NCBI RefSeq assembly: GCF_000024425.1
Contig: NC_013946.1
Coordinates: 558,001 to 622,000, forward strand
From: Meiothermus ruber DSM 1279
GTDB taxonomy: Bacteria; Deinococcota; Deinococci; Deinococcales; Thermaceae
Direction of reading: 5' to 3'
Length of the DNA stretch: 64,000 nt
How positions within the stretch are numbered: the first letter of the stretch is position 1; the number at the start of each line of letters is the position of its first letter. Positions 42,024 to 46,958 of the stretch are shown here, piece after piece. Position numbers and translations under genes: made by a program. The notes beneath the pieces were generated by a model. It was not told where the DNA came from. It saw only the letters and a program-made list of their open reading frames with translations, and made no database searches.

Positions 42024-43118
42024 TTATGGGTCGGGCTCGAGCAGGGCGCTGCTCATGGCGAGGCCGCGTGCTGTCGGGCGCAGCCCTTCCCGCACCACCT
42101 CGAGCCAGCCCGCTTGCCGGGCCTTTTCCCGCACCTGCTTGAGAAAGCGAGGGTTCCACCCGAACTCCTCGAGCACCTCCCCTTCGGGCACCGGCTGATC
42201 GTGGTGGGCCAGGTGTGCGACCAGCAGGCGGGCGGCGACCTCGAGGCGCTGTCGTTCCCGGCGCAGGCGGGCGGTGAGGTAGCCCTCCACGGGCGAAAAG
42301 AGGAAGGCCAGGGTAAAGCAAAGCCCGGCCACCGTGGCCATCATGCCGGCGATGGAGGCGTCCAGCCAGATGGCCAGCGCATATCCCGCCAGGCTGGAAA
42401 CCACCCCGACCCCCACCGCCAGGGCAATCATCACCGGCAGGCGCCGCGTGAGCAGGTAGGCCGTAGCGGGAGGAATGATCAGGAAGGCCACAATCAAAAT
42501 GGCTCCCACCGACTGGAAAGCCCCCACCGAGGTGAAGGAGACCAGGGTCATCAGACCGTAGTGCAGCGCGCCGGGTGCGAGGCCCAGCGCGGCGGCCAGG
42601 CCAGGATCGAAGGTAGAGAGCTTGAGTTCCTTATAAAACAGCAGCACGAACAGCAGGTTGAGCAGGGTGAGCGAGCCCATCACCAGCCACGACTCGGGCA
42701 CCTCCCGGCCCCACAGGTTCAGGGTGTTGAAGGGGGCATAGGCGATCTCACCGTAGAGCACGGCGTCCATGTCCAGGTGCACGTTGCGGAAGAAAAGCGA
42801 GACCGCCAAGACCCCCAGGCTAAACAGCGCAGGGAACACGATTCCGATGGCCGCATCGTTTTTGACCTTGCCGGTGCGGGTTAGCCACTCCACCAGAACC
42901 ACGGTCACCAGGCCCGCGGCGGCGGCCCCCAGCAAGGCCGGTACAGTGGCCCGCTCGCCGCCGGAAAGCCAGTAGGCCAGCACGATGCCCGGCAGCACCG
43001 CGTGGGAGATGGCATCGGACAGCAGGGCCATACGGCGCAGCACCAGGAAGCTGCCCACCAGGGCCGAGGCCGTGGAGACCAGGATGGCGGTGAGGATAAT
43101 TACCAGGTCGGCGTTCAT
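42024..43118 (-). CDS. metal ABC transporter permease with C-terminal winged helix (second permease)
   Basis: 364 residues. Residues 1-283 are the ZnuB/MntB-type permease: SFLVLRRMALLSDAISHAVL at the N-terminus and AFQSVGAILIVAFLIIPPAT. Residues 285-364 are a soluble extension that reads as a winged helix (VPEGEVLEEFGWNPRFLKQV, then RQAGWLEVVREGLRPTARG). Ordinary family members end near 280. It overlaps the first permease by four bases. It imports Mn, Zn or Fe with the ATPase and binding protein upstream. Confidence 0.88.
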   Translation of the reverse strand: MNADLVIILTAILVSTASALVGSFLVLRRMALLSDAISHAVLPGIVLAYWLSGGERATVPALLGAAAAGLVTVVLVEWLTRTGKVKNDAAIGIVFPALFSLGVLAVSLFFRNVHLDMDAVLYGEIAYAPFNTLNLWGREVPESWLVMGSLTLLNLLFVLLFYKELKLSTFDPGLAAALGLAPGALHYGLMTLVSFTSVGAFQSVGAILIVAFLIIPPATAYLLTRRLPVMIALAVGVGVVSSLAGYALAIWLDASIAGMMATVAGLCFTLAFLFSPVEGYLTARLRRERQRLEVAARLLVAHLAHHDQPVPEGEVLEEFGWNPRFLKQVREKARQAGWLEVVREGLRPTARGLAMSSALLEPDP

Positions 43119-44248
43119 GACGAACCCTCCACCCTATGCGGCAAAACCCGCATGGCTTGCTCGAGTTCGTGGGCTTTCTGTTCGCCGGTCGGTGTGAGGA
43201 TAAAGCCCTGCGGGTGTTCCTGTACCCAGCCCAAAGACCGCAGGGCCTCGAGGTTCTGTAAGGCCACGGCCACCGGCTCGCGGCGGCGCTCTGCCAGGGT
43301 CTGCGGGGTCAGGGTGCCGTGGGCGTGCAGCACGTGGGCGTCCAGCAGGAGGCGCTCGAGGCGCACCCGGCGGCGGTTCTGCCGGGTGCGGGCCCAGTCC
43401 CACACCAGCCCCCTGAGCGGGGCAAAAAAGAGCGAGACCAGCAGGATGGCGCTCATCGAGAGCACCACCAGCGGGCCGGTGGGCAGGTTTTCGCGGGTGG
43501 CCGAGATCAAGGCCCCGCTCACCCCGGCCATGGCTCCAAACAGCGCCGAGAGCCCGATCATCGCCTCCAGCCGGTTGGTCCACTGCCTCGCGGCGGCAGC
43601 CGGGGCAATCAGCATGGCCGCCATCAAGACCACCCCTACGGTTTGCAGCCCCACCATGACCGCCAGCACCATCAGGGAGGTGAGGAGGGTGTTCAGCCCC
43701 CGCACCGGCAGGCCCAGGCTGTGGGCGTAGGCGGGGTCGAAGGAAAGCAGCTTGAACTCTTTGTAAAACAGCCCCACCACCAGCAGCGCGACGCCGCCCA
43801 GCACCATAAAGTTCCGTACGTCGGAGGCCACAATGGTAGCGGCCTGCCCGAAGATGTACTGATCCAGCCCGGCCTGGCTGGCGTTGTTGCTGTGCTGGAT
43901 AAAGGTGAGCAGGGCCACCCCGAAGCCAAAAAAGCTGCTGAGCATCACCCCCAGGGCCGAGTCCTCGGGTAGCCGGCTGTGGCGTAACACAGCCAGCACC
44001 AGCCAGGCGGCCAGCCAGCCGGCCAGACCCCCGCCCAGGAGCAGCACCAGGGGGGCCTTGGTGCCGGTGAGGATGAAGGCCAGGCAGATGCCCGGTAGCG
44101 CGGCGTGGGCCAGCACATCCCCCAGCAGGCTCTGGCGGCGCAGGACAGCAAAAGCCCCCAGCACCCCGCCCACCACCCCCAGCATGGCCGAGCCCAGCGC
44201 CACGTTGCGCAGGGTGTAGTCGGTAAAGATAAGCAGGAGTTCAGACAT
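43115..44248 (-). CDS. metal ABC transporter permease with C-terminal winged helix (first permease)
   Basis: 377 residues from ATG 44248. Residues 1-283 are the MntB/TroC-type permease (LRRQSLLGDVLAHAALPGIC, VGLQTVGVVLMAAMLIAPAA). Residues 290-377 form a helix-turn-helix-like tail (HAHGTLTPQTLAERRREPVA, then LRSLGWVQEHPQGFILTPTG). Its sequence recalls DtxR-type N-termini. A 195-bp gap with a GC-rich hairpin (GCCCC/GGGGGC) separates it from the ATPase gene. A longer upstream start is open but has no family similarity. Confidence 0.88.
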   Translation of the reverse strand: MSELLLIFTDYTLRNVALGSAMLGVVGGVLGAFAVLRRQSLLGDVLAHAALPGICLAFILTGTKAPLVLLLGGGLAGWLAAWLVLAVLRHSRLPEDSALGVMLSSFFGFGVALLTFIQHSNNASQAGLDQYIFGQAATIVASDVRNFMVLGGVALLVVGLFYKEFKLLSFDPAYAHSLGLPVRGLNTLLTSLMVLAVMVGLQTVGVVLMAAMLIAPAAAARQWTNRLEAMIGLSALFGAMAGVSGALISATRENLPTGPLVVLSMSAILLVSLFFAPLRGLVWDWARTRQNRRRVRLERLLLDAHVLHAHGTLTPQTLAERRREPVAVALQNLEALRSLGWVQEHPQGFILTPTGEQKAHELEQAMRVLPHRVEGSS

Positions 44249-44443
44249 AGTGAGGAAGAATGGTTCCAAGGGATGGCTGCGGCGTGGGGTTTGCTCATGC
44301 CCCCGGGCAGGGGCACGGGCCCGTCCCGCTCTCACGGCTTTCGTGCATTGCATGAGAGGAGCCGCGAACTGGGACGCAGAGAAAACTGTTTTGAAAGGCG
44401 GCCTCGAGCCCGTGGTGGTTGTGTAAAGAGATGCTTTTCCAGC

Positions 44444-45223
44444 TCATGCGCTGTGCCTTTCCCCCCACCGCATCCGCTCCCCGTAGGTTCGTTTTAGGTT
44501 CTCGGGTGTAAACACCTCTTCCATCGGCCCGCTGGCTATTACCTGCACGTTCAGCAGGGTCAGGTGGTCGAAGTAATCGCGCACGGTTTCCAGGTCGTGG
44601 TGTACCACCACCACGGTTTTACCCTGCTTCTTAAGCTCGTGCAGTACCCGCAGGATGGCCTCTTCGGTAACGGCATCCACCCCAGCGAAGGGCTCGTCCA
44701 TAAAGTAGAGATCGGCATCCTGGGCCAGGGCCCGGGCCAGAAACACCCGCTGCTGCTGGCCGCCGGATAGCTGCGAGATCTGGCGGGTGGTAAAGGCCTG
44801 CATCGAGACCTGCTCCAGGCAGCGCAGGGCTGCCTCGCGCTCGCGCGGGCCGGGCCGCTTGAACCAGCCCAACTGGCCGTAAAGCCCCATCATGACCACG
44901 TCCAGTACGCTGGTGGGGAAATCCCAGTCCACCGAGCCCCGCTGGGGCACATAGCCGATGCGTTTGCGGGCCTGTGCCAGGCTCTGGCCAAAAAAGCGCA
45001 CCTGCCCCGAGGCCACCGGCACCAGCCCCAGGACTGCCTTAATCAGGGTGGATTTGCCCGCCCCGTTGGGGCCCACAATGGCGCAAAGCTGCCCGGTGGG
45101 TACTTCCAGATCCACATCCCACAAGGCTGGCTTCTCCCGGTAGACCACGGTCAGGTCGCGCACGCGGAGGGGGCTCGAGGCCCCGGATTCCGGGTTCTGA
45201 ACGGTTCTAGGTTGGGTGATCAC
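44444..45223 (-). CDS. metal ABC transporter ATPase
   Basis: 259 residues. Walker [10 protein letters not shown], signature LSGGQQQR and Walker [10 protein letters not shown] identify the family. The family-typical stretch [20 protein letters not shown] is characteristic of MntA/ZnuC-type Mn/Zn importers. It overlaps the end of the binding-protein gene by four bases. It powers uptake through the two permeases. Confidence 0.92.
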
Positions 45224-46185
45224 GGCTCCCTCCCCAGCAGACCGTTCACGATGGTGCGGATGTTGTGCTCCATCATGCCCACATAGGTGCCCTCGGGGGT
45301 GCCGGGGCTGCCGGCAGCGTCGGAAAAAAGCTCGCCTCCGATGGTTACACGCCAGCCTCGAGCCCGCACCGCTGCCACCACCGCATCAATGGCGCGCCGG
45401 GGCACGCTGGACTCCACGAAGATGGCGCGAATTTTACGCTCCACGATGAAGTCGGCCAGGGCCTGCACGTCGCGGGTGCCGGCCTCGGATACGGTGGAGA
45501 TGCCCTGCAAGCCCCGCACCTCGAGGCCGTACCGCCTGCCCAGATAGTTAAAGGCGTCGTGGGCGGTAATCAACACCCGTTGCTGCGGTGGAACCTGGGC
45601 AATTTGCTGGCGGATGAAGGCATCCAGTTGCTCGAGGCGCTTGCGGTAGGCCTCGGCATTGGCCCGGTAGCGGCTGGCCCCAGCGGGGTCTACCTGGCTG
45701 AGCGCATCCCGCACCCGGCCGATGGTGAACTGCCAGAGGGTCACATCGAACCAGACGTGGGGGTCGTAGGTGAACTGCCCCTGGAAGCCACCAGCGGGCC
45801 GAATCAGGCGCTCGCGGGGGATGGCGTCGGTCACCGCGATGGCCTTGGGCAGGCGTTCCAGCAGCTCCACCATCTTGCCCTCGAGGTGCAGCCCGCCGTA
45901 GAAGACCAGGTCGGCCTGCTGGAGCCGGCGCACATCGCCCGCCGAGGCCTTGTAGAGGTGGGGGTCTACCCCGGCCCCCATCAGGCCCTCCACCCGGACG
46001 CGGTCGCCCCCCACCTGCTGTACCAGGTCGGTGATAAAGTTGACCGTGGTCACCACCCGCACCGGGGTTTGCCGCACCGGCTGAAGCCGGCTGATTTTGT
46101 CTGGCTGGGCGCTGACCTGGGTCGCAAGGCCCAGCACCAGCAGGGCCAGTAGTATAGAGGGTTTTAGGTGGTTACGGATTCGCAT
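45220..46185 (-). CDS. metal-binding periplasmic protein (TroA/ZnuA family)
   Basis: 321 residues with a signal peptide (ending VSAQ). The cluster A-I metal ligands are visible: [20 protein letters not shown] (first His), [13 protein letters not shown] (second His), [20 protein letters not shown] (region of the third ligand) and IFVESSVP (Glu). The Glu and the absence of a long His-rich loop favour Mn or Fe over Zn, as in MntC/TroA. Its start lies inside the repressor gene end. Confidence 0.88.
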
Positions 46186-46891
46186 CCTGATCCTCCTCGA
46201 TCTGTATCCACAGCACCTGGGCCAGGCTGGTGGGCAGCAAATAGCGCTGGCCTCCTACCTGTATGCGGCTGCCCTCGGCCCCCTGCTCGAGCAGCCGCAG
46301 CGAAGCGCCGGGCTTGAGACCCAGACGGGCCAGCAGGTTGAGCGCGTCCTGATCCTGGGTGGCTACCCGTGCCACCGTGCCGTACTGGCCGCTTTGCAAG
46401 GCTGCCAGGCGGCGGTTGGGGGTGGTGGGGGGTAGCTCGAGGGCCGCGCTGGGGATGAGATCGCCGTGGGGGTCGTGGGAAGGGTGGCCCAGCCACTCGG
46501 CGATGCGCTGTTCGAAGGCTTCCGAGATGTGGTGCTCGAGCTTTTCTGCCTCGGCGTGCACTTCCTCCCAGCCGTAGCCCAGCGCCTGGTGCAGATAGGC
46601 CTCAATCAGCCGGTGATGGCGGAGCACCTCGAGGGCCACCTTGTAGCCGGCCTCGGTGAGCCGCACGCCCCGGTAGGCCTCGTACTCCACCAAGCCCAGC
46701 TCGGCCAGCTTCTTGAGCATCCCGGTGACCGAGGCCGGCTTGACCTGCATCCGGTCGGCCAGCGATTGGGTGGATACCGGCAGGGTGTCCTCCAGCCGGC
46801 CCATGCCCTCCCCGCTGCCTAGCAGCAAGACCTGCTTTAGATAGTCTTCCTGGGCCTCGGAGAGGGGGGTGCGGTGGGTGGTTCTGTTCAT
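46172..46891 (-). CDS. DtxR/MntR-family metal-dependent repressor
   Basis: 239 residues from ATG 46891. The winged helix has PVSTQSLADRMQVKPASVTG and MLKKLAELGLVEYEAYRGVR. The dimerisation/metal domain has HRLIEAYLHQALGYGWEEVH and AEKLEHHISEAFEQRIAEWL, with the His/Glu ligands of this family. A C-terminal FeoA/SH3-like domain ends the protein. It is the first gene of the transporter operon it probably controls, and a palindrome overlaps its promoter. Confidence 0.9.
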   Translation of the reverse strand: MNRTTHRTPLSEAQEDYLKQVLLLGSGEGMGRLEDTLPVSTQSLADRMQVKPASVTGMLKKLAELGLVEYEAYRGVRLTEAGYKVALEVLRHHRLIEAYLHQALGYGWEEVHAEAEKLEHHISEAFEQRIAEWLGHPSHDPHGDLIPSAALELPPTTPNRRLAALQSGQYGTVARVATQDQDALNLLARLGLKPGASLRLLEQGAEGSRIQVGGQRYLLPTSLAQVLWIQIEEDQDANP

Positions 46892-46930
46892 AGTCTGAGA
46901 TTTAGGCAAACCATGCCAAGTAGGCTTTTA

Positions 46931-46958
46931 TTTTTAGGTAAAACTAAAAATCTGTCAA
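46931..46958 (-). promoter_or_regulatory. promoter and metal-repressor operator of the uptake operon
   Basis: TTGACA (46958-46953), a 16-bp spacer and TAAAAA (46936-46931). The perfect palindrome TTTTTAG-N6-CTAAAAA (46931-46950) covers the spacer and -10. Its position is ideal for repression by the DtxR/MntR-type protein encoded first in the operon. Confidence 0.7.

Follow-up and report, generated by a model that had tools for sequence, protein, structure and literature searches.

Both permeases of a metal importer in Meiothermus ruber DSM 1279 carry a long C-terminal extension, and the locus raises the question of whether these extensions act on DNA or on the transporter itself. It lies within a stretch of 64,000 nucleotides (the window; NC_013946.1, positions 558,001 to 622,000). 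Fusion of a permease to a repressor is already known: in Chlamydia, YtgR conserves the metal ligands of DtxR, is released from YtgC by cleavage and binds DNA with Fe (PMC5599777). That source credits Thompson et al. with orthologous permease-repressor fusions in 11 phyla. Such fusions have so far been read as transcriptional, and an initial annotation of the present locus had proposed membrane-linked metal sensing or transport-coupled gene control in Thermaceae.

The operon and its two long permeases

Read 5' to 3' on the minus strand, the operon encodes MntR, a metal-binding protein, an ATPase, the first permease (P0002) and the second permease (P0001). Its features, in window coordinates, are:

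46930..46950, minus strand: inferred MntR operator TTTTTAGTTTTACCTAAAAAT (TTTTTAGnnnnnCCTAAAAAT), adjoining the -35 element TTGACA (46953-46958)
46172..46891, minus strand: mntR, whose product MntR (P0003) has all three domains of a complete DtxR-type repressor (HTH, metal/dimerisation, FeoA)
45220..46185, minus strand: P0005, ZnuA-type periplasmic metal-binding protein (PF01297, E 8e-81)
44444..45223, minus strand: P0004, ABC ATPase of the transporter (PF00005, E 1.6e-30)
43406..44248, minus strand: ABC-3 core of the first permease, P0002 residues 1-281 (PF00950, E 3.9e-67, residues 11-275)
43115..43405, minus strand: winged-helix tail of the first permease, P0002 residues 282-377 and stop codon (AlphaFold2, hhalign)
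42276..43118, minus strand: ABC-3 core of the second permease, P0001 residues 1-281 (PF00950, E 9.8e-54, residues 8-274)
42156..42215, minus strand: candidate metal site H302-x3-H306-x7-E314-x3-E318-x2-W321, between helices 1 and 2 of the second tail
42024..42275, minus strand: winged-helix tail of the second permease, P0001 residues 282-364 and stop codon (AlphaFold2, hhalign)

By position, P0002 (43115-44248, minus strand) corresponds to TroC/YtgC/MntB and P0001 (42024-43118, minus strand) to TroD/MntD; the two genes overlap by 4 bases (ATGA). At 364 (P0001) and 377 (P0002) residues both proteins are indeed longer than usual, solved relatives having 260-290. Both cores belong to the ABC-3 family (PF00950; 183 and 226.9 bits, cut-off 20.1) and end near residue 275-280, after which 83-97 residues follow; in P0001 homology to 7kyp extends to residue 284. 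The solved relatives share this core but end with it and have no tail (manganese permease chains of 7kyo/7kyp, 282-290 residues; ZnuB 9oko, 260 residues). A third permease of the same genome (L002) is likewise an ABC-3 protein without a tail, as ABC-3 permeases in general are. The operon is tightly packed except for a gap of about 195 bases (44249-44443) between the ATPase gene and the first permease, and in relatives this gap ranges from about 10 to 400 bases.

The presence of a separate DtxR/MntR-type repressor in the operon is confirmed, P0003 scoring 387.5 bits against NF047407 (NCBIfam, cut-off 350) and matching Fe_dep_repress, Fe_dep_repr_C and FeoA in Pfam. In this protein Lys19 replaces the metal ligand Glu11 of B. 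subtilis MntR, a replacement also reported for Deinococcus DR2539.

The Treponema TroABCDR system resembles the operon in its transporter gene order and in having a DtxR-type TroR. Treponema TroD has 366-367 residues and TroC 298-304 (PMC2628430 Table 1). Compared by length alone, TroD could accommodate a tail of M. ruber size; TroC is too short, so that, unlike the M. ruber pair, the Treponema permeases would have at most one long tail between them.

Fold and kinship of the tails

AlphaFold2 models built from alignments of 66 and 68 sequences gave the order H1-H2-H3-strand-strand-H4 for both tails, with a mean pLDDT of 85.9 for the first and 88.4 for the second and values in the mid 90s across most of the domain. 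The canonical order, the confident models and TM scores of about 0.5-0.77 to wHTH structures place both tails among the winged helices. Foldseek searches of the PDB matched the winged helices of MarR, DtxR, MntR, DR2539 and CggR at E values of 2e-3 to 1e-2, none reaching 0.001. The first tail fits E. coli MntR (2h09) at 1.3 A over 83 columns with a TM score of 0.77. In sequence profile searches of the PDB, the top matches of the first tail were DtxR-family metalloregulators (ScaR, E 4.6e-4); those of the second tail were a MarR-family regulator and MntR (E 0.007-0.02). With hhalign the profiles of the two tails align with each other (95.8%, E 7.8e-9), and both match MntR (first tail 93.5%, E 2.3e-7; second tail 82.6%, E 9.6e-6).

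With DtxR/MntR repressors (DR2539, E. coli MntR 2h09, IdeR, ScaR) the tails share the winged-helix fold and a profile match over domain 1. The alignment with MntR spans residues 14-94, that of the first tail stopping at R94 in the RHH that starts DtxR domain 2; the metal-binding/dimerisation domain is therefore missing from the tails, and Pfam did not find Fe_dep_repr_C in either. The tails are truncated DtxR/MntR-type winged helices, comprising the DNA-binding half only. The proposal of a C-terminal winged helix on both permeases, akin to the DNA-binding half of DtxR/MntR, is thus borne out by AlphaFold2 and hhalign. Since they lack both the metal-binding/dimerisation domain and a conserved recognition helix, the tails are nevertheless not DtxR/MntR repressors.

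The parallel with Chlamydia YtgC/YtgR stands in one respect and fails in another. As in YtgCR, the ABC-3 permease in the first-permease position ends in a DtxR-type winged helix. Unlike YtgCR, which has a complete DtxR-like unit on the permease, the M. ruber tails of 83-97 residues are the HTH half (domain 1) only, occur on both permeases and coexist with a separate MntR; with the metal-binding/dimerisation half missing, a close analogy is unsupported.

Purifying selection acts on the tails, with a median dN/dS of 0.32 and 0.19 compared with 0.13 and 0.10 for the cores. Rrf2 and HVO_A0261_N were discarded as tail families, their single-sequence Pfam matches falling below cut-off, and independent translation of a tail was rejected, the sequence having no internal Met ahead of it.

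Occurrence and conserved residues of the tails

The tails are not a peculiarity of Thermaceae, as had been suggested; their spread across many phyla rules this out. A single scan of genome contigs, biased to relatives of P0002, gave 80 loci from Deinococcota, Chloroflexi, Bacteroidota/Rhodothermia, Poribacteria, Calditrichota, Zixiibacteriota, Spirochaetes, Omnitrophota, Armatimonadota, Actinomycetota and Proteobacteria, together with two archaeal records. Because these loci are mostly from MAGs, single phylum placements may reflect contamination. Where the permease pair was complete (loci L039-L114, n=69), both permeases were tailed in 56/69, a set reaching from Chloroflexi to Spirochaetes and Omnitrophota, and the second only in 13/69. 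Judged from these sequences, the tailed-pair arrangement is old and widespread.

The tails are also dispensable: several lineages have lost one of them, and Fusobacterium has neither. In five Deinococcota loci (L028-L032) only the first permease is tailed, the second-permease ends having no wHTH; the missing tails are taken as losses. Conservation in Thermus and Deinococcus, suggested earlier as a check, is partial. Among 111 genomes of the phylum, the tailed pair occurs in most of Meiothermus and near genera, and in one further family. Most Thermus-like genomes (g4, a name that is inferred) have no close system, the exception (G062) carrying a tail on the second permease only, and in Deinococcus plasmids the first permease is tail-less and the second tailed.

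Several loci depart from this layout. A small complete DtxR-type protein follows the second permease in two of the three Deinococcus plasmid loci read (L137:6010-6405 and L136:6061-6405; 114-131 residues, with HTH and HLEHH metal/dimerisation parts and no FeoA); D. peraridilitoris also carries a full-length regulator upstream. In genome G001 (L023:1498-2868) the first permease has 457 residues, and its tail consists of two tandem winged-helix copies.

The best-conserved non-core positions of the second-permease tails form the pattern [IV]-H24-L-x-x-H28-E ... [HE]36-x3-[HE]40-x2-W43. H24 is present in 68/68 sequences, a conservation exceeding that of hydrophobic core positions, and H28 in 64/68. 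The P0001 equivalents H302, H306, E314, E318 and W321 are all invariant in Thermaceae, positions 314 and 318 being mostly His or Glu in second-permease tails as a whole. At the equivalent place between helices 1 and 2, first-permease tails have QHxDxx[HY]xH, of which Thermaceae retain only H310 and, in most cases, H305. In the two tails of this window, most of all the first, a large part of the His signature is reduced. In the corresponding stretch of the stand-alone MntRs from these loci, no His exceeds 20%. His/Glu pairs at i, i+4 on two neighbouring helices are a usual metal-binding arrangement, and the cluster between helices 1 and 2 is a candidate metal site.

Our literature search, with limited coverage of subscription journals, turned up neither half-repressor tails on both permeases nor the His signature, and no account of tailed permeases beyond Chlamydia. 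If a common form of these fusions keeps only the DNA-binding fold, without the repressor functions and with a conserved His/acid cluster, many of them would regulate transport and not genes.

DNA reading and the role of the tails

The operator TTTTTAGnnnnnCCTAAAAAT sits between the -35 and -10 elements of the mntR promoter and is conserved at this place in at least 10 genomes of Meiothermus. Shuffling predicts 0 occurrences, and the sole perfect copy in the genome is the one upstream of mntR. In 17 Thermaceae sequences the HTH region of MntR has 86% pairwise identity, and its recognition helix KPASVTGMLKKL (K51-L62) is essentially invariant, K51 being K or R. Over the same 17 sequences identity is 61% and 67% in the tails and 82% and 86% in their cores, and exposed positions of tail helix 3 vary freely, charge included. 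In the wide alignments few elements of the tails are less conserved than helix 3, whose mean net charge is +0.3 and +1.1; that of the wing is about -0.1 to -0.2. Because the tail helix drifts while that of MntR is near-invariant, and because the lone perfect operator precedes mntR, the suggested DNA-directed function in gene control finds no support. A winged helix without a conserved recognition helix may still bind DNA if its targets change too.

Release of the tails by proteolysis, to bind the mnt operator as repressors in the manner of YtgR, is therefore very improbable, notwithstanding their DtxR-type wHTH kinship, the YtgC precedent and the fusions reported in 11 phyla (PMC5599777). The operon already encodes a complete MntR, and the variable recognition helices of the tails contrast with the near-invariant MntR helix at a conserved operator. 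What speaks most strongly against release is the lack of the second half of DtxR, with its dimerisation and metal functions, together with a Paracoccus aestuarii plasmid (L139:2902-4995) in which one polypeptide of 698 residues, whose far end looks frameshifted, places the first tail between two permeases, tethered at both ends. An alternative is DNA binding at the membrane as in CadC/ToxR, where unreleased, paired tails would link transport to gene control or to nucleoid position. Two wHTHs per transporter would make a natural pair, and DNA-binding proteins with a matching fold include CggR and members of the MarR family; with helix 3 and the wing near-neutral and poorly conserved, and no second perfect operator copy in the genome, we regard this as quite unlikely.

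The main rival to metal sensing is a relic or purely structural role, in which halves of a former repressor are retained for folding or assembly and sense nothing. Relaxed, though purifying, selection, repeated single losses of tails and the reduced His signature in Thermaceae would all fit. The presence of His24 in every second-permease tail, across many phyla and above the level of the hydrophobic core, goes beyond the needs of folding, and we consider this role unlikely.

With the metal-sensing and pairing half missing and no sign of DNA reading, the tails more likely work in place. On balance we favour the view that they are cytoplasmic accessory domains, derived from a truncated DtxR repressor, that act on the transporter and possibly sense metal. 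Truncated winged helices would long ago have been built into a metal importer with two permeases (binding protein, ATPase, permease, permease). Basic residues just past the last core segment in both permeases (R287-R294; R284-R291) are consistent, by the positive-inside rule, with tails in the cytoplasm, where they would adjoin the ATPases and stabilise or gate the transporter. Because the His/Glu positions are conserved, membrane-linked metal sensing is a possibility, as a matter of transport rather than of gene control. Response to cytosolic metal through the His/acid cluster seems the most plausible specific role. That such importers form a widespread class whose paired tails serve as cytosolic metal sensors and directly close or slow the transporter at high cytosolic metal (trans-inhibition) through the HxxxH...[HE]xxx[HE]xxW site is a more tentative proposal, which we would not call probable.

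Transcription of the operon would be left to the separate MntR, which on this evidence is enough to explain the operator at 46930-46950. About 20 bases downstream of that operator, most mntR promoters in the comparison have a conserved GCCTAAAT half-site (46900-46909).
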